From: a virus
Length of the DNA: 64,000 nt
IMG/VR virus record: IMGVR_UViG_3300030060_002561
Coordinates: 1-64,000 of that record
Strand: one strand, 5' to 3'
The notes beneath the pieces were generated by a model, which had not been told where the DNA came from, did no database searches, and worked only from the letters and a program-made list of their open reading frames with translations. Within the stretch, counting starts at the first letter, position 1. Every line of letters starts with the position of its first letter. Positions 22,648-36,199 of the stretch are shown here, piece after piece. The translations under genes and the position numbers were made by a program.

Positions 22648-22855
22648 CTGTCAAAGCCTCCGACATTTTTCTGGCAAACGCCTCATCTGCGGCCTTTAGA
22701 GCCTGTTCATTCAATGCGCTCTCAGATAGAGAAAACTCCCCAAGTCCCAAATCAGCAAGCATGGCGTTTCGCTCTATCTCTCTCTCCGCCGCCTCTCTGC
22801 CTATCTTCAAGGCTTTGAGCAATTTTCTTCTTACTTCTTCTACCATTTGAATCAC
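22640..22855 (-). CDS. Small helical protein in the connector region
   Basis: 71 residues, almost entirely helical and charged (MIQMVEEVRRKLLKALKIG at the start, ending RKMSEALTDG). It overlaps both neighbours by 4-8 nt (ATGA-type at 22855), so it is almost certainly translated. It lies between the head-tail connector and the tail completion gene. It may be a neck assembly factor. I do not recognise a family. Confidence 0.65.
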   Translation of the reverse strand: MIQMVEEVRRKLLKALKIGREAAEREIERNAMLADLGLGEFSLSESALNEQALKAADEAFARKMSEALTDG

Positions 22856-23958
22856 GATATGAAATGGATGATGTTCTTCTTACCATCAATAATCTTGTTC
22901 GCCTCTTCAATTAGTATATCGTGCTTGGTCTTCAAGTCGATGTTTGAACCTGTTTCAGCAACAAGGATAGAATTGTCATCATGCCTAATTACTTCGGCGG
23001 CTACTAGTTTCGTAGCGGCTTCGTGAATAGGTGCAGGTACTCTTCCATCACCTGCGACATATGTGACTCTAATGGAGTGATTCTTGATGAATGGATACTT
23101 ACTATGAAAGAATATCTTACCTTCATGGCTTATCTGCCAGAAGTCATCTAGCCTCCCTTGTGTCTCATGGTCTGTAAATCCAGATACACTTCCGACTCCT
23201 GCACTTCCATCCTGCGTATCCACAGAAGCAATGGTGCAACTAGAGCCATCATCACCCATCAACAACGATGAGATTGTTACCTTGTCACCATCCTTGGTAG
23301 CATAGAAGAAATCAGATATATTTACTGATGTGTTTCCAACGGCAGTCACAGTCTTACGTGCAGTTTCTCCTGTAAACTTAGCCGTTTTCATTGGATATAC
23401 TTCATTGATTGCATCTACCAATTGACTGGCTGTTGTCTTCGGGCCAAAGGAGTCAAAGAAATGAGTTCCCTCTATTATCTCAAAGGTATACGTTCCTGCG
23501 GTAAGTGTAATCTTCCAAGTCTGTGAATTAGTAGTAGCAGAGGATGGCATTGTGATACTAGCAGTAGCAGAAGCCAAGTCCACCCAATCGCTTCCTTGCC
23601 ATATCTCTAACCTCACAAGTTTCTGAACCTTCGGAAATTCCAGTTGAACGAAACCAATGTAATCCCTGTACATAGTTACAGGATACATAAGATGGCGATT
23701 TGCCTCAAACGAAGAAAACTCATCTTTGTAGATTAGTGGTCTGTATGAGTGCTTGGTTGCATCATCTATCTTTTCTTCTACTCTCTTGATGAGTTTACCT
23801 ACCTCTGCTCTCGTTGGTGTAGAGAAGTCTGTAAAGGACTCTATTTGGAGTAAGTTAGAAACATCTGTATGAGTAGTGTAGAATCCATTTCCTATTGTGT
23901 AGTTTGGATTGATAGACGTAAAATCGCTTGGGGAACCTAGTTTAACCATTTTAACCAC
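22852..23958 (-). CDS. Head-tail connector (adaptor) protein
   Basis: 368 residues. The N-terminal part contains TRAEVGKLIKRVEEKIDDAT and the C-terminal part GRVPAPIHEAATKLVAAEVI followed by LKTKHDILIEEANKIIDGKK. This helix arrangement is typical of phage gp6/gp15-like adaptor proteins that sit under the portal. An inserted beta-rich domain (about residues 130-290) makes it longer than usual. It lies next to the tail completion gene, as expected. Function from pattern and order rather than from a database match. Confidence 0.65.
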   Translation of the reverse strand: MVKMVKLGSPSDFTSINPNYTIGNGFYTTHTDVSNLLQIESFTDFSTPTRAEVGKLIKRVEEKIDDATKHSYRPLIYKDEFSSFEANRHLMYPVTMYRDYIGFVQLEFPKVQKLVRLEIWQGSDWVDLASATASITMPSSATTNSQTWKITLTAGTYTFEIIEGTHFFDSFGPKTTASQLVDAINEVYPMKTAKFTGETARKTVTAVGNTSVNISDFFYATKDGDKVTISSLLMGDDGSSCTIASVDTQDGSAGVGSVSGFTDHETQGRLDDFWQISHEGKIFFHSKYPFIKNHSIRVTYVAGDGRVPAPIHEAATKLVAAEVIRHDDNSILVAETGSNIDLKTKHDILIEEANKIIDGKKNIIHFIS

Positions 23959-26878
23959 CGCTATAGATTACTCTTCTTAAGTCTTGATAATTGTTCTTTA
24001 TCTTCATGAGCGCATTCACATCCTGTGCTTTCTCTTTATCGAATATGTTCTTCTCACCTTTACGAGAGTCATATGTCGCTCTCCATTGTTTTCTCCCGGC
24101 CTTTACTTCTGGCTTGGTACGAATAAGTTGCCTTTGGTGTATGCTATCCTTGTTCTTGTCAACGGGCTTACCTAGCCACATTAGATTCATTTGGGGTTGT
24201 ATGAATGGGTCTTCATCATCATCTATCTGAACTCCCCCTGCATTTTCTAGAAGTTTCTTGAGGTAGTCCTTATGGTCATAATAAATTTCTATAAGACCTT
24301 GGCCCTTATTTCCTATACTTGTCATAATTTCCTCATGTGCTGAGTCACCCGACATCGTGGTAAACAACTCCGATAGACTGTAACTAAGACCGACATCTCC
24401 CTTTGGCCTGTAAAAGAGACTTGTCTTTCCAGTTCCCAAACCATCTATGATAGCCTTGTCTTGTGGCTCCATCTTTGCTTTATCTACATCTGGTTTTGCC
24501 AGTTCGATGTTATCTATGTACATGATAATCTTATTGATATCTTCAACCAATTTAGTTAGGTCTGCTACTGTTTTAGTTGTATATCCCTGTGTAAAATCAT
24601 TTAAGTCAACCTTAGCAAATCTGAACTTTCTAAATGGTGGAGTCTTGTCGTCTACTTCCATTCTCTGACTTTCAACTATTGGAGTGCCTTCTCTATTTTT
24701 ACCTTCAACAAGACGGCCTTTTTCATCAATGGTATCTGCTTCGTAGAATTTACCCGGTTCTGTCGGTTTTTCCTTGACCTTACCTGTCTCCATGTCTACC
24801 TCATCAGGTGCATCTGCAACTTTCTTTTTCCAAGCATTGAACAACTCTGTGTATTGTGGGTTCTCTACTGCTTTCTTCCAATCTGGGTGGTCTTTTATTG
24901 CAGGTATTTCCTCTTCTATTTCCTCATATGCTTTGGTATCTGGATTGTATCTATTTGCTAGTCTAATTCCACCTTCTGGATTCTTCAATGCATATGCATC
25001 GTTAGTAATCAAAGCCGCATACGATACCAAATCTTGCACTAGTTCTTCTTCATCTGTATATCTGTCAAGCATCTTTGCAAGTTCAAACTTAGGCATACTT
25101 TGAATCAACTGATTGTATTTGAAAAGAATGAATGTCACTTTCAGCAACTCTGGTACATATGCCATAAACTGCGAATCTTCTTTTGTGTCCTTTCTCTGTA
25201 GTGACATTAGGAATTTATCATATCCCGCATCTCCTTGGAACGGAGCATAGTTGATTTTGAATTCAGTAGTCCCAATTGATATAGAGCCATTAGAAGGTGT
25301 TATGGTTGATAGAATCATTCTCCTTAATGCATGTACATCTCTACCGCTTTTAGGTGGCTTTGATAGTAGAGCGTTCTTAATGTCGGTTTCTGTCAACTCC
25401 GTCAATCTTGCATTGTACGCTTCTCTAGGTGTCAAGTTATCTAATTCTGTACCGTCAAATCTTTTCAAGGTATAATTTGCACTAGTAATTATCCTTTTAT
25501 TGTCTTTGTCAGTTCCTTCGATTCCTTTAGGAGTAAGATATTCTACACTGTAGTTATCTACCTTCTTCAATTCTCTCCTTTGACCTACACTCGATTTGAT
25601 GATATCCATCGCTTTCATCATCTTTTCAGCAACCTCATCCTCATCTGGACTTCCTGCCTCTAACACTTCAATCTCTTCTTGAGGTTCTTCTTCGATGTCA
25701 CCTTCACCTGTCTCAGCATCAGCACCAGTCTCAGCACCTCGCATATCCTTTATGCTTTGCTTAGTATCCGCAATCTTATCTTCTAGGTTCTGTAAATAGG
25801 TATCGACTTCCTCTGGTGTGAGAAAGTTCTCTTTCTCCAGTCTCTTGAGTTGTCTCTTGAATTTTCTATAGTCCTTCATATATCCCCTTAAACCCGAAGA
25901 ACTTTCCGCAGGTTCATCCTCAAACTTATCCATTCCCTCTAGGATTTTATCAAGCATGTTCTGCATTTCTTCTGTGTCTGCTCCTTCTGGAGCATCCTTC
26001 ATCTCAAACTGCCATTCATCCTTCGCTGGGTCATAGTACCCATGAATAGCCATGATAGCCTTGATGTAATCCTCAGTTTGAATTTTAATCGTATCTCCTT
26101 CTATTGATATGTTATCCAAGAACATCTGAAAGGTATCGCTGTTTCTACCTATGTCCACTATTGGTTCTCCCTTGTCAAACTTGGATAGTAGGGATATGGT
26201 TCTGTTTGGCTTGTCTGCCTCTTGGAAATCTGGTTTGGGTGCTTCGGGTTTTTCTTTGACCTTACCTGCTTCATACTGCTTCATATCATCTTCATATTTT
26301 TTCTGTTGCTCTGGTGTCACCGCAGTTATCTTACCACTAGGAGAAAGCCCTGTACCTGCTTCATAGCCTACTACCTTCTGAATGGTAGATTCGCTATCCA
26401 ATCTCTCTAGAGTTAGATTCTCCCCTTCCTTGCCACCTAGACGTTTTATCGTGGCTTCGGAGAGATTCAACTCCTTTGCTAGAAAATCTTCCTTTTGAAG
26501 TATCTTTATCAATAGTGAAAGATTCTCCTTTCCTAGTTTTTTCATGAATGTATCGAAGTATCTCTTCTTCTTGGTATCAGTAAAACTACCGGGCTTGTTC
26601 TTCCTAGTGGATATGTTTGCATCTGCAAAATCACTCTCATCTACATCAGCAAGTAGTGGCATCACTTTCCTTGCTTTGTTCATCTTTGCAGTTTGATTCT
26701 TACCTAGATTTTTGAAAGGATAGGCCGTTAGATACTGGAATGCTATGTTTCTCAAGAATTCTTCAAAGTCTGCTGATGCAGAAAGATTGTCAAAAACCGC
26801 ATTCTGATTTTCTAGGCGTATCAACTGGCCCGGAATAATCATTTTTTCCTTGTATCTATCTTGTTTAATCAGAACCAT
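23951..26878 (-). CDS. Large helical virion-region protein of unknown function (975 aa)
   Basis: I do not recognise this protein. It is hydrophilic, Lys/Glu-rich and mostly helical, with a coiled-coil stretch about 325-385 and an acidic linker about 385-420 (TGEGDIEEEPQEEIEVLEAG). Low-complexity K-x-K-E-K-P-E/T-x-P segments occur near 210 and 700. There is no clear enzyme motif: a G-L-G-T-G-K-T-S run near residue 822 resembles a P-loop, but no Walker B partner is evident. It overlaps the connector gene by 8 nt. A start at Met13 is also possible. Its place between the GTPase cluster and the connector suggests a structural or internal virion protein. Confidence 0.75.
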   Translation of the reverse strand: MVLIKQDRYKEKMIIPGQLIRLENQNAVFDNLSASADFEEFLRNIAFQYLTAYPFKNLGKNQTAKMNKARKVMPLLADVDESDFADANISTRKNKPGSFTDTKKKRYFDTFMKKLGKENLSLLIKILQKEDFLAKELNLSEATIKRLGGKEGENLTLERLDSESTIQKVVGYEAGTGLSPSGKITAVTPEQQKKYEDDMKQYEAGKVKEKPEAPKPDFQEADKPNRTISLLSKFDKGEPIVDIGRNSDTFQMFLDNISIEGDTIKIQTEDYIKAIMAIHGYYDPAKDEWQFEMKDAPEGADTEEMQNMLDKILEGMDKFEDEPAESSSGLRGYMKDYRKFKRQLKRLEKENFLTPEEVDTYLQNLEDKIADTKQSIKDMRGAETGADAETGEGDIEEEPQEEIEVLEAGSPDEDEVAEKMMKAMDIIKSSVGQRRELKKVDNYSVEYLTPKGIEGTDKDNKRIITSANYTLKRFDGTELDNLTPREAYNARLTELTETDIKNALLSKPPKSGRDVHALRRMILSTITPSNGSISIGTTEFKINYAPFQGDAGYDKFLMSLQRKDTKEDSQFMAYVPELLKVTFILFKYNQLIQSMPKFELAKMLDRYTDEEELVQDLVSYAALITNDAYALKNPEGGIRLANRYNPDTKAYEEIEEEIPAIKDHPDWKKAVENPQYTELFNAWKKKVADAPDEVDMETGKVKEKPTEPGKFYEADTIDEKGRLVEGKNREGTPIVESQRMEVDDKTPPFRKFRFAKVDLNDFTQGYTTKTVADLTKLVEDINKIIMYIDNIELAKPDVDKAKMEPQDKAIIDGLGTGKTSLFYRPKGDVGLSYSLSELFTTMSGDSAHEEIMTSIGNKGQGLIEIYYDHKDYLKKLLENAGGVQIDDDEDPFIQPQMNLMWLGKPVDKNKDSIHQRQLIRTKPEVKAGRKQWRATYDSRKGEKNIFDKEKAQDVNALMKIKNNYQDLRRVIYSGG

Positions 26879-26887
26879 CTACCTCAC

Positions 26888-27610
26888 CTATGCAAGCCAC
26901 TTGGCCCAAGCAATGCCCTTACTGACGGCATTAGCAAGACCAAGCCCGCTTGCGGGCGGGGTGTATGTCATCTGACCGGATACAGGGTCTATCCAATATG
27001 GATTGTTCATATTGTCATATCCAGAAGGAGGTACGGGATATCCAGATTGGTTGTTGAATGCCATTTGTTGTTGCATCATCGTGTTGTTCATCTGGACAGA
27101 GGCGTTACCACCTTGTATCATTGATGGGTCTATGCCACTAGGATTGGGCTGACCGGGCATACCACCCACCATTGCTTGCTGTTGTGTGACCTGCTGTTCT
27201 TGTGGCATAGCAAATCCTTGAGCCTCAAGGTATTGCGTCTTAGCCATTCTTCTCTGCATGATGACTTCGGAGTTTATCGCAGAAGCAAGGAGAGTCTGTA
27301 TGTCTAATTCGATGTTTGCCTGTGTGATAGCATTGAGAGCATTGGTAGAATCTACAGATAGAGAAAGATTACCATTGTTGGAAGTCACGAAAGCGAGATT
27401 TGTCAATATCTCACTAACGGTCTTGTTAACCACATCACCCACTAGTTGTGCTAATGCAGATAGAAATGCCTCACCATGATACTGAAAGAAATCCTCTACG
27501 TGATTCTCCTGTAGAGTCAACAGATTGTTCATTGTCTTGAACTGAGCCTGTTGATTACTTTGCATCTGATTATACAGGGAACTATTGCTTGTTCCGAAAA
27601 GCCCCATCAC
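26888..27610 (-). CDS. Gln/Asn/Met-rich structural-region protein
   Basis: 240 residues. The N-terminal 130 are helical, and a hydrophobic AFLSALAQLVGDVVNKTV stretch lies about residues 48-66. The following 80 residues are rich in Gln, Met, Pro, Gly and Asn (for example QQQAMVGGMPGQPNPSG), and the protein ends LGLANAVSKGIAWAKWLA. It overlaps the upstream zinc-protein gene by 4 nt. The disordered Q/N/P-rich tail is like that of some virion assembly or membrane-associated proteins. No family recognised. Confidence 0.7.
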   Translation of the reverse strand: MMGLFGTSNSSLYNQMQSNQQAQFKTMNNLLTLQENHVEDFFQYHGEAFLSALAQLVGDVVNKTVSEILTNLAFVTSNNGNLSLSVDSTNALNAITQANIELDIQTLLASAINSEVIMQRRMAKTQYLEAQGFAMPQEQQVTQQQAMVGGMPGQPNPSGIDPSMIQGGNASVQMNNTMMQQQMAFNNQSGYPVPPSGYDNMNNPYWIDPVSGQMTYTPPASGLGLANAVSKGIAWAKWLA

Positions 27611-28281
27611 GCATCACTCTCCTTAGTGGTGACCTTCGCACCCTCGGTCAATAACGTTTTCACTCGTTGGTTAATTGTATTTTGCTCTATTAGCAACCGA
27701 AACAATTCTTCTTCGATGTTTTCTTGTTCTGCCGTAGGTGGTTTAATTGTCCAACCGACAGAAGAAAGTGACATGATATCAGTTTCTTTCAAGGTAGTCA
27801 AAGGACCAGAGGACAATGGATTCAGAGTCTGCATGGATGGGGTCTTAGGTATGTATGCGCTGAATGACAATCCATGTTCCTCTGCTAGTACCTGTTGCTC
27901 TAGCATCTCGTATTGCCTGTGTATACCTGCATGTTTCTCGCAGTAGGTTCCTCGCATTGGGTATCCCTTGCGAACCTTGTGTAGTGGTAGAGGTGGTCGA
28001 AGATTATCACTTGCATCCCAGACTTTGTGTGTACCACACACCACACATCTATCTTTGATGTTGTACTTGAATCTGTATGGTATCTTTAGGAATGTTTTCT
28101 TCTCAGGTGTTAGTACCTTGATTATCTCTTTCAATTGTTTCTTTGGCTTGACGCTCTTGTATTCATATTGCATTATGGAACCCGCGCTTCTAGCATGTTC
28201 CATTCTATCCATGAATGCCGTATTGGTTACATTCGTTGTCGAAGAACCTATCAAACTTGGTGGTTGGAATGACATTGACAT
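27607..28281 (-). CDS. Zinc-finger protein next to the GTPase
   Basis: 224 residues with a likely zinc site: C79-x2-C82 (RCVVCGTHKVW) and C114-x2-H117, with H121 nearby (GTYCEKHAGIH). A helical C-terminus follows (EEELFRLLIEQNTINQRVKTL). It follows the GTPase gene by 12 nt and overlaps the next gene by 4 nt, so it belongs to the same translational group. It could be an adaptor for the GTPase or a nucleic-acid-binding virion protein. Family unknown. Confidence 0.72.
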   Translation of the reverse strand: MSMSFQPPSLIGSSTTNVTNTAFMDRMEHARSAGSIMQYEYKSVKPKKQLKEIIKVLTPEKKTFLKIPYRFKYNIKDRCVVCGTHKVWDASDNLRPPLPLHKVRKGYPMRGTYCEKHAGIHRQYEMLEQQVLAEEHGLSFSAYIPKTPSMQTLNPLSSGPLTTLKETDIMSLSSVGWTIKPPTAEQENIEEELFRLLIEQNTINQRVKTLLTEGAKVTTKESDA

Positions 28282-28293
28282 ATGTTCACCGAA

Positions 28294-28965
28294 CTAGTAG
28301 TCCTTTATCATGGTTAGGACACCTCTGTAGACCATCTCAGAGTCTGTCTTGGCACTTACTATGTATTTGTAACAAGGAATTCCCTTGTCGTTTAATCTTT
28401 GAATGCCATCTCTGAATGCAGAGAAAATAGGATGCTGTTCTATTGGCCCATCATGTTCATACTTGTCTTTCCACAAGTCATACTTGTTAGCCCATATTCC
28501 TACTGCTACTGGATAGTCTGATTCTCTTTTCTTCTTTCTCTTACCATTGATGTTCCATTCTGTACTGCAAATTGTATCCACTAGGAAAGTCCAACACAGT
28601 TGTTGTTCGATATCATAATGCTTGTCCATGTGTCTATCATCCATCATGAAGATGATGTACTTGACTCTTCGATTCCTCATATCGTTTAACCAGTCATTCC
28701 AGTATACCGTCTGTCCACCTACATCAGCAGTCTTCACAGTATGTGCATCCCCGTCTAGTTTGACGTACTTCCTACTTGCACGTTGCAATCCTTCTGTCCT
28801 ATGTCGAATATCTGGAACATCACCTCTCGTTCTCAACTGGTGATTCATAGTGGTCTTACCTGCTCTGGTAGCACCATATATTCCGAAGTTGATTGCATGT
28901 ACACGTTGGTATAGTTTGTTAAGTCCCTCGACTATCAATATGGCAAAACCTGCCATTACTGACAA
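28294..28965 (-). CDS. Arf-like small GTPase
   Basis: 223 residues with the full set of GTPase motifs. G1 is GATRAGKT (31-38), G3 is DVGGQ (81-85, the exact Arf/Sar form with the catalytic Gln), G4 is NKYD (160-163) and G5 is SAK (204-206). A Thr at 57 may serve as G2. The N-terminus has a hydrophobic/amphipathic helix (MAGFAILIVEGL, 4-15), as in membrane-associated Arf proteins. A Lys/Arg-rich insert (GKRKKKRESD, 141-150) precedes G4. It lies among virion genes directly after two small membrane-protein genes (4-nt gap to the nearer one). It probably binds GTP at a membrane. A viral use in membrane remodelling, virion assembly or blocking a host GTPase is inference. Confidence 0.82.
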   Translation of the reverse strand: MSVMAGFAILIVEGLNKLYQRVHAINFGIYGATRAGKTTMNHQLRTRGDVPDIRHRTEGLQRASRKYVKLDGDAHTVKTADVGGQTVYWNDWLNDMRNRRVKYIIFMMDDRHMDKHYDIEQQLCWTFLVDTICSTEWNINGKRKKKRESDYPVAVGIWANKYDLWKDKYEHDGPIEQHPIFSAFRDGIQRLNDKGIPCYKYIVSAKTDSEMVYRGVLTMIKDY

Positions 28966-28969
28966 GATA

Positions 28970-29194
28970 TCACCACAGATGGTCCCAGAAGTCTACTAGG
29001 CCATTCCAAGCCATTGATAGGGTGTTGATTCCATAAACCGCTAGGAGTTGTCCAAGTGCAAAACTACTCAGACAGAAGATTCCGCCCCATAGGTAGAACC
29101 TAGCCCTAAGAAACCAGATATCAGCAGAGTGCGCTCTTTGTAGGTCATATGCAAGGGTTGACTCATCCATTCCAAATAGGATTTCGCTTACCAT
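28970..29194 (-). CDS. Small single-span membrane protein
   Basis: 74 residues with one clear membrane segment (about 33-54, FYLWGGIFCLSSFALGQLLA) and a second, amphipathic and Trp-rich C-terminal region ending WNGLVDFWDHLW. It lies between another membrane protein and the GTPase gene, 4 nt from the latter. It could recruit the GTPase to a membrane. No family recognised. Confidence 0.72.
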   Translation of the reverse strand: MVSEILFGMDESTLAYDLQRAHSADIWFLRARFYLWGGIFCLSSFALGQLLAVYGINTLSMAWNGLVDFWDHLW

Positions 29195-29209: not shown

Positions 29210-29617
29210 CTACTGGTTTTCAAGTGTTAAGAACGCAGGAGTCATTGTCTCTGGTTCTTCGGCCTTCACCGTTGGAAGAGTAGTATCCCCGTAGGGAGTG
29301 TAGTTCTGCTGGAAGCGAGCCATCGACTCTCGCACTCTTCTCTTGTTTTGCTCTTCTCTTTCCTTCCTACCCCAGTAACCATCAATGGCTCTCCTAAGTA
29401 GACCTTCCTCAATCATATCGCTAAGGAACACATCAAATGCCACTTTGACAACAAGTATCCCACCTACCGTACTAATGCCAAATAAGATGGCATGTGCTTC
29501 TGGCCCGTATGGGAAGGATATCCCGTACTGTGAGTATGCGAATACATTCACACCACACATAGAACCTACGAACAGTATCGCCATAATCATGCGGGTGTCT
29601 GTTTCTAGGCTTGGCAT
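29210..29617 (-). CDS. Two-span membrane protein
   Basis: 135 residues with two predicted membrane segments (about 10-28, MIMAILFVGSMCGVNVFAY, and 42-63, HAILFGISTVGGILVVKVAF) and a charged C-terminal tail (RRAIDGYWGRKEREEQNKRR onward). It heads the group of membrane protein, membrane protein, GTPase and zinc protein. The two spans with both ends on the same side suggest a small membrane anchor or pore, but the size and charged tail do not match a known holin family. Function unknown. Confidence 0.75.
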   Translation of the reverse strand: MPSLETDTRMIMAILFVGSMCGVNVFAYSQYGISFPYGPEAHAILFGISTVGGILVVKVAFDVFLSDMIEEGLLRRAIDGYWGRKEREEQNKRRVRESMARFQQNYTPYGDTTLPTVKAEEPETMTPAFLTLENQ

Positions 29618-29626
29618 ATTTTTTCC

Positions 29627-29938
29627 TCAACTATAGTTAACGGTGACTGCAACAGTAGCACCTGACGCAGTTACATCTACTAGTATTCCATCTGATAGCA
29701 AAGCCCCATGAAAGTCATGCTCTAAGTTCGTTACTGCGTTTGGTAGGTATATTCTTGCTATCTCGTCAGCACTAACCTTCGTTGTGTCGTGACTGTCATA
29801 GATGTTAACTGTCGCAGTAGAACCACCATCAGAACTGATATGAATACTGTTTAATCTAACCTTCTGTGGAGACTTACCACCAACTACAACAACGTTGTCT
29901 GGACTAACTAACAGTTTGCTAGTTGCTACTGTGGTCAT
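29627..29938 (-). CDS. Small beta-rich virion protein
   Basis: 103 residues, nearly all beta strand (VRLNSIHISSDGGSTATVN, VTASGATVAVTVNYS). This pattern is typical of minor capsid, decoration or tail-adaptor proteins. It overlaps the upstream gene (SAP-domain protein) by 4 nt and lies in the capsid block. No enzymatic motif. Confidence 0.68.
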   Translation of the reverse strand: MTTVATSKLLVSPDNVVVVGGKSPQKVRLNSIHISSDGGSTATVNIYDSHDTTKVSADEIARIYLPNAVTNLEHDFHGALLSDGILVDVTASGATVAVTVNYS

Positions 29939-30462
29939 CCTTCTGCCTCCAATAGCGCATCAATTAGAATCGACTTCTTACCATCTGCCTTGATTCCTCT
30001 CTCATCGAGTAGAGCCTTGAGTTGCTTGTTGGTGAGTTTCTCTAGATTTGGTGGCAGAGGGGCAAGGACTTCCTTTTCTTCCTTGACTGGCTTCTCCATT
30101 TGAGGATGAATCTCTTCCTTAGCCTCTGGTAGTTTCTCCGGCTTGGGCTTGGCCTTACCACCGAAGAACGACTTGCTCTTTCCGAATATTTTCTCAACCA
30201 TAGTCGGACCATCATCATCCTCGGTCAATTTATCATAGTGACCAACTAGATGGCTTCTCTTGTACTTTGACATAGTAGCCAAGTCCTTCTCATCGTTTGA
30301 GTCTAGGACTACTGTGTAGTTGTCATCTCTAAGAAGCGAACTAGCATACCTCAAGGGTATGTCTACGTCTTGTTTGTATCCTACAACGTATCTGTCAGTA
30401 CCGAAATTTATTCTCATTGCTCGACCATTCAATGGTCTGTTCGTTAGTCTAACCTTAGCCAT
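29935..30462 (-). CDS. SAP/HeH-domain protein of the capsid block
   Basis: 175 residues if translation starts at the ATG at 30462, which has GGTGAG just upstream; an in-frame ATG at 30522 has no such site. The N-terminal half is a small beta domain (RLTNRPLNGRAMRINFGTD), and the middle is a Lys/Pro/Glu linker. The last ~33 residues (LTNKQLKALLDERGIKADGK then SILIDALLEAEG) match the SAP/HeH helix-extension-helix fold, often found in DNA-binding proteins and in phage head-region proteins. It could contact DNA at the portal vertex or act as a small head protein. Confidence 0.72.
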   Translation of the reverse strand: MAKVRLTNRPLNGRAMRINFGTDRYVVGYKQDVDIPLRYASSLLRDDNYTVVLDSNDEKDLATMSKYKRSHLVGHYDKLTEDDDGPTMVEKIFGKSKSFFGGKAKPKPEKLPEAKEEIHPQMEKPVKEEKEVLAPLPPNLEKLTNKQLKALLDERGIKADGKKSILIDALLEAEG

Positions 30463-30491
30463 ATTCTCACCTAGTAATAGAGGGTAGCGAC

Positions 30492-30518
30492 CCCCTTCCT
30501 GATGTTCTAGGAAGAGGG
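30492..30518 (-). terminator. Hairpin between capsid-block genes
   Basis: CTTCCT (30495-30500) pairs with AGGAAG (30509-30514), extended by CCC/GGG with one bulge, in the 75-nt gap between two genes. It is followed by no T-run on the minus strand, so it may be a processing site or a partial terminator that separates the very highly expressed capsid gene from downstream genes. Confidence 0.4.
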
Positions 30519-30537
30519 CCACTACTTTATGTTTTAC

Positions 30538-30921
30538 TCAGAGAAGGCCGTAAACTCGACAGCGTACCGCACCGTAATCTGTGGTTCCGGTATGCTCTGC
30601 TATCTCGTTACTTACTTCGTGTAGAACGTTCAGAACGAACGAGGTCGTAGAAGCAGATGCTCCGCTTCCTGTGTTCGTTGTGTACGAGCCTGTTGACAGT
30701 ACCTCTGGTACAACTAGTGCAGTAAATGTGTCCTGACCAGTCACCATTACTTGGTGTATGGTGCTTAGTCCACAATCTGCGGCATTAACCAGAAGCCCTA
30801 CAGCATCCGTAGCCGGGTATGCACCCAAGTCTACTAGGATGTCCACGAAATACTCGTCACCTGATACTCTAGGCGATGTCATTCCCTTGTGGTCTTCAAG
30901 TATGGTTACTGCGGTTGCCAT
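30538..30921 (-). CDS. Small protein after major capsid gene, possibly decoration
   Basis: 127 residues, beta-rich and Thr/Ser/Gly/Ala-rich (GSYTTNTGSGASASTTSFVL). It lies directly downstream of the major capsid gene with an 11-nt gap, where many HK97-type viruses encode a decoration or stabilising protein. It contains two cysteines (NAADCGLS and AVRCRVYG). Role inferred from position and composition. Confidence 0.65.
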   Translation of the reverse strand: MATAVTILEDHKGMTSPRVSGDEYFVDILVDLGAYPATDAVGLLVNAADCGLSTIHQVMVTGQDTFTALVVPEVLSTGSYTTNTGSGASASTTSFVLNVLHEVSNEIAEHTGTTDYGAVRCRVYGLL

Positions 30922-30932
30922 TCACAACCACC

Positions 30933-32354
30933 TCACGCAGACTTTAGGTTGGTTATCTTACCTTGTCCCTTGAAGAACGAGCAAGCAGTCTCGCCCATGG
31001 TTCTGTACAGACCTGTGTTACCAAGCCTGTCAACACCGAATGGGTTGCCGTTAGCGATACCATCCTCAAAGTATTGAGTAGGCTTCATCACACTCATCCA
31101 CAGATGGTCTGTGTCCAGAAGAAGGATGTCGCTCAATCCGTTGGTAACTGACGAAGCAGTTGTGGATGGCATGTCCTTTGCTGGTATGATGGGTATGTCG
31201 TAGTAGGTTGCTACACGGAAACCGACTTCAGCACCTTTGGGTCCACGGACACCGTTGTGGGTAGGTACAATCTCCTTCCTGTCCATGAACCTCTCTTGGC
31301 TCTGTAGTAGGTCCGAGATGTGCTGGATAGTATCGTATCCAGTAATCATTACCTTCGGGTTTCCACCGTTCTGCCTTATCTTCCTAATCATGTCGTTAAG
31401 GATGGATAGAGTTAGAACCCTAGCAGATGCGTATGATGTACCGAAGTCAACCTCTGCATCTAGGTAAGTCCTGTCTCCAGTATTGTTTATCACAACATCG
31501 TCAACGCTTCCTGCGTCACCACCATCGGCGGCAGACGTAACTTCTCTGTCTGTTCCGAAAATCTTCCTTACTGCAAGGGAGATGTCGGTTACACCAGTAT
31601 CGTTCTCGCTCCTAGCCGTTATGTTGTCTAGGTACATCTGTCCGATTTCCTCGGCAGATGAGACAATCTTGTGGAGCGAAGTGTAGTTCTCCATAACTCC
31701 AGTCTTGTTGCTGTCTGTGATGTCATCTCCGTTGACTGCGCCATCGACATCCGAGTATCGCTCTAGTGGCATCAGAAGCATAACGTTCTGAACCTCTGCG
31801 TGGTGCTTACCCATGTCCTCTCTAACGATAGAACGAATGTCACCTACACCGTCATCAATAGCGGCCATCTCCATACCAACCTCTGAGAACTCAAACTTGT
31901 GAGCAATCGTCTTAGGGCTGATGTAGAGTTTGGTGTACTCTGGAGATAGAGCAGGGATGTCTGCTAGAGCCTCGTTCTCTGTGACTCCACCTAGTCTGTC
32001 TGCTCTAGGGGTTGCAGAACCTGCGGCTCCGCTTCCTACTCCGAAGGCGGCAGAAGCCCCACCGGATGGTCGGCTTCTTAGAACCCTCCAACCAGAGGAA
32101 GTGTAAGGTCGCTTTGCCATCATCGAAAGTGCGTTAACTTCCTGATTCAGCATTGACCAAACCTTCTGTCCGTATAGGACTCCGTATAGGTCGGACAATC
32201 CAGTGGCGGCAGTAAAGTCTCTGCCACTTGCATCGTGTGGTGTTCCAAATCCTCCGACTACACCTGCGCTCTTTAGTAGTGCATTGCCCTGTGCGCCCCT
32301 CATTCCATAGGTTGCGGCTTCAAGGTCTTTCATTGTCTTAATATATCCAGTCAT
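30933..32354 (-). CDS. Major capsid protein, HK97-fold
   Basis: 473 residues, located directly after protease/scaffold as in HK97-type viruses. Features include a helical N-terminus with short Gly-rich stretches, GVLYGQKVWSMLNQEVNALS (N-arm to E-loop region), and the long helix VREDMGKHHAEVQNVMLLM. NGGNPKVMITGYDTIQHISDL and GFRVATYYDIPIIPAKDMPS are typical of HK97 capsid A-domain segments. The gene has few overlaps and base composition suited to high expression. Proteolytic maturation near the N-terminus is likely given the adjacent protease, but the site cannot be placed. Confidence 0.85.
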   Translation of the reverse strand: MTGYIKTMKDLEAATYGMRGAQGNALLKSAGVVGGFGTPHDASGRDFTAATGLSDLYGVLYGQKVWSMLNQEVNALSMMAKRPYTSSGWRVLRSRPSGGASAAFGVGSGAAGSATPRADRLGGVTENEALADIPALSPEYTKLYISPKTIAHKFEFSEVGMEMAAIDDGVGDIRSIVREDMGKHHAEVQNVMLLMPLERYSDVDGAVNGDDITDSNKTGVMENYTSLHKIVSSAEEIGQMYLDNITARSENDTGVTDISLAVRKIFGTDREVTSAADGGDAGSVDDVVINNTGDRTYLDAEVDFGTSYASARVLTLSILNDMIRKIRQNGGNPKVMITGYDTIQHISDLLQSQERFMDRKEIVPTHNGVRGPKGAEVGFRVATYYDIPIIPAKDMPSTTASSVTNGLSDILLLDTDHLWMSVMKPTQYFEDGIANGNPFGVDRLGNTGLYRTMGETACSFFKGQGKITNLKSA

Positions 32355-33604: not shown

Positions 33605-36199
33605 TTAATCTGATTTTTTAGTTGGAAATGACAAATCTGCGTATTTATCTTCTGTAATATCCCAGAGTTTTGTATCATCCTTCATATCCAACATCTCTTG
33701 TTTCTTACCTGTCCAGACAATCCAAGTCTTCTTCTCATCTAGAGGTACAACTCTAACGTGGAATCTAGTATCGAACTTGTCACCTTCTAGTTTGTATTCA
33801 TGGTATCCTTCTTTCTGTACACCTAGTATTAACTTACCAGAATCTATCTCCTTCTTATGTTGACCTAACCGTTTTCCTACAATAGCAGGGAACTTCCCAG
33901 ACTTACCAAACAAGTCGTATATGTCCTCACTGTTTTCTATATCAATCTCCCAGAAGTTTCTCTTGTCATTAACATCCATGATGAAATCCAAGTTGCCATC
34001 TTCTCTCAAGATGATGCTAAACGAACCTGTTTCTCTTTTTTTTAATTCCTCGACATCCTTCTCTAGTACATCTGGTATGGCAGTAAACTTGTTGGGATGA
34101 TGATATCTCAGACTATCCTGCTTCTTCATCCAAGTCATCAGATTCTCATCGCTACTCTGGAAAACCTCTTCGTATGTCTCTGGGAACTCCTTCTTTACGA
34201 AATCAACTATCTTAGGAAAGGCAGTTGGTTTGTTCTTGTATATGTCTATTATCTCATTCTTGATTGCGATTCTTAATTCTGACCTTCTGGTTTTCAACAT
34301 CCTCTCTAGTTCAGACTTCCACATGTCTAGATTGTACAATGCGTTCTTCTGCATAAGTGAATCACCTTCAAATCCATATATGGTGAAACCATCAAAGTCG
34401 CTCTTCAAGATTATCTCAGCAGTACCATGTATGTCATCAGTTATCATATACGACTTCTTTTCATTGGTCTTGTCCTTTATTCCAGTTGTGATATTGAACG
34501 GGCTGAGTTGTCGAACCCCAATCATAGCATCTGAAGTCAATGATTTCTTGGTCTTGGTAGATAACTTCTCCAATGTGGATAGTTTGTCTGACTGAGTTAC
34601 TTCTGGTATCTCTATCACTTTAGCAGAGTAGAGATTGAATCCCTTCTTATTCTTCTTGACTTCATCCACCTTGACTCTAACTATGTCTCCGACACTTACC
34701 TTTACCTTGGTGTTGAGTGCCTTACCAACTGAAACATATGCCTTGTCATCCATCTCCGTAGTTGTATAAGTCCTAGCCTCTTCCGCAGTAATCGGGCCTA
34801 CTCCCATAGTGTAAGTATGCATTCCATTGTTAGTGGATTTCTTATCTAGTACAATAACATCCAAGTCAACGAACTTTTTCCACTTAATCCACTTCGGATT
34901 CTTCTTCTTTGTAATTGGATATGTTGACTCCATATCCTTGATTACCACTCCCTCCGATGCAGGTAGTTCCATGATATCCTTCGCATACTCTCCTACTTCC
35001 TTGATTGAGTCTGCGACTCTGGTATCTTTCTTCGATGGGAATGCGAGAGAATCAGATGAGTGTTGACTGAATTGGTATAGAAGGATGTTATGTCTCTCTC
35101 TCAATGGTTCATCATGAATGTCCTTGCCCTCATGTTGCATTATGTCAAACACATGCGCTCTTAGTTCTCCACCTTTCTTGTTCTTGAAAACATGAGCAAT
35201 GGTAGAAGCCCGATGTAGTGGTTCATCATCCTCAAACAGAACCAACTCTCCATCTAGTATACAATCCCCGAACTGCTTCTTCCTTAGTTGCTCGACTTGC
35301 TTCTCACATTTGTCAGTAATATCCTTCTTGTTGTATGAGTATACCTTGATGTTATCCTTCTTCTTGTGAAGTTGTATTCTCATGCCGTCATACTTCTCTT
35401 GAACCAACCACTCTCCAGTAAATCCCTTCAACTCCTTCAAGTCATCTAACTCAAATATCCTGTACATCGGTTTGTTTGGTATGATGAAATCTATTTCCGA
35501 TTTCTCATCTACACTCTTCTCGTCTTCGCTCTTCTCTAGGTCTAACTCAACTAGATTGTCCCATTGTTCATCTTCGTATACGCCATTGAACATCTTGTCG
35601 AGTCGCTTCAATGCTCCCTTGAACTTTGACTTGATTCTGCTTTGGTCTTCATCTTCTGCCCCATAGTGTTCTATGATGTAGAGAGGTATGTCATCCATCT
35701 CTAAATCCAATCCCATTGCACCTTGAGTGACATTATCTCCCTCCATGTCGTGTTCTTCCCATATTTTATCGGGAAGTGCATTGGAATGGGAACGTAGTGC
35801 ATAGTGAATAAATGCAATGAAGAGTCTGTCACTCTCCAATAGGGTGTTTATCACATCCCCTTCAAACTTCTTGGAGAACGGGTCGCTAACTTTCTTGGAC
35901 TGGAACCTCATGTCCTTGACGGCTTCGTATACCTTCTTGGCTTCTAGAGTGGTTGGGTCTTTAGCAGACTTGTCGAATAGAACCTTCTCTTCTAGATACT
36001 TCTTCAATTCCTCAGACAGTTTGTTTAGTGAGTCGAAGTCATCTCTGATTTTATCTATGACTTCGTGCCATTCCTTCTCATACTCTGCTTTGTCCTCTCT
36101 GGCTGAAAGATAGGCGTATCGTGTCTTCTCAAAGAAATCAAGAATTGCTCTAGTCAAATCCTCAGTTTCTTTCTCAAACATCAATCCTGTTTCAACCAC
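33605..36199 (-). CDS. ATP-dependent DNA ligase with long C-terminal extension
   Basis: 864 residues. The nucleotidyltransferase core is clear: motif I EKYDGMR with the adenylated Lys269, motif III ILDGELVLFED, motif IIIa AHVFDIMQHEG, motif IV SEGVVIKDME, and motif V KWIKWKKFVDLDVIVLD. An OB-fold follows (VSVGDIVRVKVDEV). The N-terminal ~235 residues are helical, probably the DNA-binding domain of archaeal-type ligases (family usually ~560-600 residues). The C-terminal ~280 residues are extra; part of them (YKLEGDKFDTRFHVRVV) recalls the LigD phosphoesterase fold but lacks its HDA/HYD motif. Start GTG at 36199 has AAGGTGGG upstream. It joins nicked DNA; why it sits among late genes is open. 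Confidence 0.88.
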   Translation of the reverse strand: MVETGLMFEKETEDLTRAILDFFEKTRYAYLSAREDKAEYEKEWHEVIDKIRDDFDSLNKLSEELKKYLEEKVLFDKSAKDPTTLEAKKVYEAVKDMRFQSKKVSDPFSKKFEGDVINTLLESDRLFIAFIHYALRSHSNALPDKIWEEHDMEGDNVTQGAMGLDLEMDDIPLYIIEHYGAEDEDQSRIKSKFKGALKRLDKMFNGVYEDEQWDNLVELDLEKSEDEKSVDEKSEIDFIIPNKPMYRIFELDDLKELKGFTGEWLVQEKYDGMRIQLHKKKDNIKVYSYNKKDITDKCEKQVEQLRKKQFGDCILDGELVLFEDDEPLHRASTIAHVFKNKKGGELRAHVFDIMQHEGKDIHDEPLRERHNILLYQFSQHSSDSLAFPSKKDTRVADSIKEVGEYAKDIMELPASEGVVIKDMESTYPITKKKNPKWIKWKKFVDLDVIVLDKKSTNNGMHTYTMGVGPITAEEARTYTTTEMDDKAYVSVGKALNTKVKVSVGDIVRVKVDEVKKNKKGFNLYSAKVIEIPEVTQSDKLSTLEKLSTKTKKSLTSDAMIGVRQLSPFNITTGIKDKTNEKKSYMITDDIHGTAEIILKSDFDGFTIYGFEGDSLMQKNALYNLDMWKSELERMLKTRRSELRIAIKNEIIDIYKNKPTAFPKIVDFVKKEFPETYEEVFQSSDENLMTWMKKQDSLRYHHPNKFTAIPDVLEKDVEELKKRETGSFSIILREDGNLDFIMDVNDKRNFWEIDIENSEDIYDLFGKSGKFPAIVGKRLGQHKKEIDSGKLILGVQKEGYHEYKLEGDKFDTRFHVRVVPLDEKKTWIVWTGKKQEMLDMKDDTKLWDITEDKYADLSFPTKKSD

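Follow-up and report, generated by a model that had tools for sequence, protein, structure and literature searches.

A conserved small GTPase encoded among the virion genes of a magrovirus travels as a block with two small membrane proteins, which suggests a GTP-controlled host-membrane step late in infection that is seemingly undescribed. The GTPase is encoded in the window, the whole 64,000-nucleotide stretch of viral DNA that was analyzed. It is a single-copy core gene of its lineage, and purifying selection acts on it more strongly than on the major capsid protein (MCP). Magroviruses are reported to be ubiquitous and to infect one of the most abundant groups of planktonic archaea. We know of no magrovirus in culture.

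The window is from a magrovirus, a predicted Poseidoniales virus, as judged by published descriptions and not against the type genomes OR863078, ON649702 and PP497039. As described for Magrovirales, it contains an HK97-type MCP related to those of Druskaviridae, a structural module, a portal, a terminase and a ligase located near the prohead protease. The MCP matches HCTV-1-type capsids, and a tail tube gene is also found. The original prediction placed the GTPase amid the structural genes of a tailed virus; its neighbors indeed encode the prohead protease, MCP, portal, terminase and tail tube. The three small genes that adjoin the MCP gene probably encode capsid decoration proteins. The ligase–protease neighborhood of the window matches the one published for a magrovirus of group A (PMC7318539), and magroviruses are described as predicted viruses of Poseidoniales (PMC12999244, PMC10768690). 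In the window, the ATP-dependent DNA ligase domain is part of an 864-aa protein (positions 33605–36199) encoded in the head cluster, directly before the prohead protease.

Table 1. Genes and motifs of the GTPase block and its surroundings in the window
Feature	Position	Strand	Description
Major capsid protein, SU10/HCTV-1 type	30933..32354	(-)	Used for the clade tree
Three small MCP-adjoining genes (127 aa; SAP-domain, 195 aa; 103 aa)	29627..30921	(-)	Upstream border of the block
TM135	29210..29617	(-)	Two predicted transmembrane helices; long, charged tail at the C-terminus
TM74, small membrane protein	28970..29194	(-)	Conserved N-terminal segment; candidate membrane partner of the GTPase
GTPase, 223 aa	28294..28965	(-)	P-loop GTPase ORF with a TTG start
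GTPase motifs			G1 GATRAGKTT; G2 RT(V/E)G; G3 DVGG(Q/E); G4 NKYD; G5 SAK
Other GTPase features			Helix 2-21; Trp seven residues after the G3 Q/E; conserved hairpin insert with basic residues (KRKKKR) preceding G4
Zn224, putative zinc protein	27607..28281	(-)	Conserved CxxC...CxxH; directly downstream of the GTPase
g240, last gene of the block	26888..27610	(-)	Helical N-terminus, Gln/Met/Pro-rich middle and conserved C-terminus
975-aa protein and 368-aa neck adaptor	22852..26878	(-)	Downstream border of the block; adaptor with a profile match to HCTV-1 gp117

The predicted GTPase ORF is present in the window and contains GATRAGKT, DVGGQ, NKYD and SAK in that order, as originally claimed. Three scans of viral contigs for relatives gave 149–181 matches each. 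The start codon is kept among relatives as ATG (186), TTG (43) or GTG (20). In 207 distinct GTPase sequences from 367 loci, a set that includes partial sequences at contig ends, the motifs G[A/S][T/S]xxGKTT, T-x-G, DxGG, NKxD and SAK are retained almost without exception. Residues G35, K36, T37, T38, T56, D80, G82, G83, N159, K160, D162 and S203–K205 are invariant in 50 representatives with identities down to 58%, and the motifs are therefore not due to chance. The catalytic Gln, predicted to be intact, is found in the DVGGQ motif of the window but belongs to a minority of the family, as 159 of 206 relatives have Glu and 47 have Gln directly after DxGG. Because hydrolysis persists in Ras with Glu at the corresponding position, the family is not necessarily inactive. 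The dN/dS ratio of the GTPase is about 0.01–0.06, versus 0.13–0.25 for the MCP in the same pairs, and is the lowest among the module genes compared. The N-terminal hydrophobic helix that had been proposed is also predicted here, at residues 2–21; it has a moderate hydrophobic moment and no Gly at position 2, which is occupied by Ser. The N-terminal helix of Arf proteins is amphipathic and often myristoylated.

The motifs and the predicted fold place the protein securely in the Ras/Arf/G-alpha superfamily. The Ras-like (TRAFAC) motifs G1 GxxxxGK[ST], G3 DxxG, G4 NKxD and G5 SAK occur in order. A better match to a non-GTPase P-loop family and a loss of G4 and G5 in relatives had been named as contrary evidence; no such family fits better, and G4 and G5 are conserved. 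The original prediction also called the protein Arf-like from its DVGGQ signature. It is a small GTPase with all G motifs, but Arf membership was not borne out, as the profile HMM search with the window protein gives 16.7 bits for Pfam Arf (PF00025), under the gathering score of 22.3. G-alpha and SRPRB are likewise sub-threshold Pfam matches. Among 50 members of the family, MMR_HSR1 matches 49, SRPRB 46, Roc 44 and Arf 16 (the latter at E ≤ 1). The general small_GTP model is the only plausible NCBIfam match and is also below its cut-off. In a PDB-sequence profile search, Ras, ARL proteins and the 8oun GTP-binding protein, which we take to be from an Asgard archaeon, score about equally, and no E-value is below 0.1.

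Individual Arf features are divided. At G3, the family reads A/S-D-[VIL]-G-G-[E/Q] instead of the Arf motif WDxGGQ. The Trp residue located seven residues after the G3 Gln in Arf proteins is found in all 206 relatives and in the 8oun fragment; ARF1, ARL3 and SAR1A have it too, and RAS, RHO, RAB and RAN are not known to. Of the Arf switch I motif PTxGxN, the RT[VE]G sequence of the GTPase keeps T and G but not P and N. Judged by these local signatures only, GKTT, T-x-G and DxGG[Q/E]x6W appear to lean to the Arf/G-alpha side. Membership in the Arf family failed two tests (the Pfam score and the G3 sequence) and is not claimed. It is unlikely that the protein is an Arf-family GTPase proper, derived from an archaeal (for example, Asgard-type) Arf, an origin that would be compatible with any mechanism. 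GKTT, TxG and the Trp residue argue for such an origin, as do the 8oun fragment, which is the best single reference (94%) in a small, eight-sequence hhalign profile comparison, and ARF1, which has the best target-normalized TM-score among the PDB matches listed. However, HRAS scores almost as high as 8oun in the same comparison, SRPRB, Roc and MMR_HSR1 match more members than Arf does, and SAK at G5, A/S before G3 and the predominant DxGGE are un-Arf-like. The GTPase further shares DxGG, NKxD and an N-terminal helix before β1 with Arf/Sar/Arl proteins, including the archaeal-type 8oun, but differs from them in Ser instead of Gly at position 2 and in the basic hairpin inserted ahead of G4. SRP receptor beta (PF09439) is comparable as a membrane-anchored Arf-like GTPase with a weak profile match in most members. 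It has its own membrane helix, whereas the magrovirus block has separate transmembrane proteins, the window GTPase is below the cut-off and no SRP receptor alpha partner is encoded nearby.

Two AF2 models of the GTPase both exhibit the strand and helix order of a small GTPase, and the first (23-sequence alignment) is weaker than the second. The better model has modest confidence, with a pLDDT value of 66 and values below 50 at residues 33–85, which cover the switches. A Foldseek search with this model matches 370 PDB structures at E ≤ 0.001, and all 50 matches listed are G-alpha, Ras, Rab, Rag or ARF1 structures. The predicted topology and these best matches are those of the six-stranded GTPase fold, within the modest confidence of the model. 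The best 50 matches among BFVD viral structures are mainly giant-virus small GTPases and contain no tailed-virus small GTPase. The GTPases of giant eukaryotic viruses (Rab/Ras/Ran-like, such as Mimivirus R214) are likewise virus-encoded members of the Ras superfamily. They are accessory and thought to be captured from eukaryotic hosts, as inferred for R214 (PMC2263039), whereas the magrovirus GTPase is a core gene of the morphogenesis module of tailed archaeal viruses.

The GTPase gene is the third of a fixed five-gene block, TM135-TM74-GTPase-Zn224-g240, located between the capsid-decoration and neck-adaptor genes. In 20 loci, as far as the contigs reach, the gene order is protease, MCP, g127, SAP protein, g103, TM135, TM74, GTPase, Zn224, g240, (g975), adaptor g368, g192 and tail tube. 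The N-terminal segment of TM74 reads QRAHSAD in clade A and [QST]RAHSAD overall (labels A and B, assigned here by similarity of the GTPase, are distinct from the published magrovirus groups, and neither is a clean clade in the MCP tree). Because the RAHSAD segment is strictly conserved, it is a likely docking site for the GTPase. The Shine-Dalgarno sequence of the GTPase (GGTGA), located 5′ of the TTG start at 28965, overlaps the stop codon of TM74, and the gap between the two genes is 4 or 6 nt in 111 loci. The two genes thus appear translationally coupled. Zn224, which is found in every GTPase locus with room downstream, contains a conserved CxxC-x31-CxxH pattern and RPPxPL motif, and searches of Pfam, PHROGs and NCBIfam gave it no significant match. 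The CEKHAGIHR sequence of the window Zn224 resembles an ArfGAP finger, but an ArfGAP identity was rejected, as the ArfGAP spacing is CxxC-x16-CxxC and the position of the catalytic Arg varies between R, M and K. Lacking the ArfGAP arginine, Zn224 therefore identifies no GTPase regulator. The C-terminal segment of g240 is strongly conserved as SGLGLxxxIxKGxAWAKWLx.

The GTPase is present as a single copy in each of 24 records of 92–103 kb that were chosen for having it. Among MCP-bearing loci of the carrier clade that reach far enough, 235 contain both MCP and GTPase and none lacks the GTPase. In a second sample, chosen by MCP, the GTPase is found in 59 of 59. In clade C (L395, L425, L435 and others; 13 loci that extend to the adaptor) and clade D (L449, L481, L488, L489 and L495; 5 loci), all five block genes are absent together, but the MCP, g127, the SAP-like gene, the g975-like gene and the adaptor are retained. 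Whole clade C records contain neither the GTPase nor Zn224, and the control search for Zn224 was positive in three carriers. The GTPase is also absent from HCTV-1 and more distant capsid relatives. Absence of the gene from viruses with intact membrane genes had been named as evidence against the original prediction; the relatives without the GTPase also lack the neighboring membrane genes. The head–neck module of Druskaviridae (HCTV-1) has the MCP, a SAP-like protein, the adaptor gp117 and the tail tube gp121 in the same order but no GTPase, and a single unrelated transmembrane protein (gp116) is encoded just before the adaptor. Homology of the block to HCTV-1 gp113–gp120 was rejected, as profile matches are limited to the adaptor and tail tube.

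A maximum-likelihood tree of the MCP groups all carriers in a single clade (support 100/100), from which clades C and D and the distant relatives are excluded. Because the carriers are one MCP clade and the block is missing as a unit in the outside clades, a single gain of the block in one magrovirus lineage is implied. A loss of the block in clades C and D is less likely but conceivable, since the branches among the distant rows are long and the root is not firmly placed. The magrovirus-like capsids of clade D, on a well-supported separate branch without the block, may represent an undescribed group. No close cellular homologues of the GTPase are found in 84,980 species genomes, in which the sole matches are viral contigs; these magrovirus contigs (L082 and L083) are binned in a ‘Maricaulis’ MAG (NZMJ01), apparently by mis-binning. 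INPHARED phages contain no relatives of the GTPase, TM135, Zn224 or the 8oun Arf-like fragment. The record IMGVR_UViG_3300021958_000021 (L143) has 184,733 bases, about twice the magrovirus genome, and may be a duplicated assembly.

For the role of the GTPase, we favor, at roughly even chances, a membrane-tethered GTP switch that acts late, was gained once with the block and gates a membrane-linked step of virion production. One magrovirus lineage would have gained the GTPase, TM135, TM74, Zn224 and g240 once, between the decoration and neck genes. From its place in the structural gene run, the GTPase would be made late, with the virion proteins. Its N-terminal hydrophobic helix would place it at the cytoplasmic membrane of the host, on the inner side, where it would also be held by the segment of TM74 that is conserved and presumably cytosolic. 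Cycling between GTP and GDP would then control the membrane-linked step. Most likely, the GTPase would recruit or organize procapsid or neck components at the membrane or time egress through the transmembrane proteins, with Zn224 and g240 as its partners, either effectors or regulators. We infer the GTP hydrolysis, membrane location, partners and stage of the GTPase. A membrane-bound complex is suggested by helix 2–21, the two transmembrane proteins of the block, the overlap of the TM74 stop codon with the ribosome-binding site and the short gaps in most relatives; going by hydrophobicity and neighbors, the GTPase probably has a membrane role. The position among late genes points to assembly or egress. 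The original prediction suggested membrane remodeling for virion entry or exit, or mimicry of a host GTPase, and both are hypotheses. The task of the block is not shared by all such viruses, as the sister clades manage without it. A structural, non-switching role could also account for the close conservation. More tentatively, and at less than even chances, the block may form a virus-specific GTPase-driven membrane machine, acquired in a single gain, that docks virion assembly to the archaeal membrane or drives exit through it. If true, this machine would perform a GTP-switched step without a known counterpart in any tailed virus.

An egress or lysis cassette, with TM135 and TM74 permeabilizing or reshaping the membrane at a time set by the GTPase, is unlikely, although two small membrane proteins always adjoin the GTPase in the late genes and no known lysis gene was recognized among the window ORFs searched. 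TM135 is like class II holins, which form lethal pores, in its architecture only, with two predicted transmembrane helices and a charged C-terminus, and has no sequence match to them; moreover, the genes are flanked by those of the head and neck and are missing from sister clades. Less probable again is a virion component, with the GTPase and its neighbors in the neck or head acting at genome delivery, for example by engaging the host membrane or opening it during entry. The location between the decoration and neck-adaptor genes and a conservation equal in strength to that of the MCP would fit this role. However, an invariant set of GTPase catalytic residues is rarely retained in virion proteins, transmembrane proteins are unusual in tailed virions, and HCTV-1 and clades C and D make virions without these proteins. 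Mimicry of a host small GTPase that diverts host polarity, trafficking or division machinery is improbable, as the superfamily match and Arf/G-alpha-type local signatures are offset by the lack of a close cellular homologue in the species genomes searched and by the constant location within the late virion module with virus-specific partners.

A literature search identified no tailed-virus small GTPase as a core gene of the morphogenesis module, within a scope that excluded the main magrovirus papers, so an earlier annotation is possible; it also returned nothing on magrovirus assembly at, or exit from, the host. The main text of a survey of 234 magrovirus genomes does not mention a GTPase (PMC10160649). 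A core GTPase coupled to membrane proteins provides a concrete, testable handle on magrovirus assembly or exit and extends the viral use of small GTPases beyond the giant viruses of eukaryotes to the tailed viruses of archaea. The gain of the block as a unit represents one innovation within the magrovirus order. Some clade B genomes (L119, L172, L178, L190, L114, L117, L173 and L183) carry extra cargo at the TM74/GTPase and GTPase/Zn224 junctions, and the cargo ORFs of L119, L172 and L178 are GNAT-like by eye.
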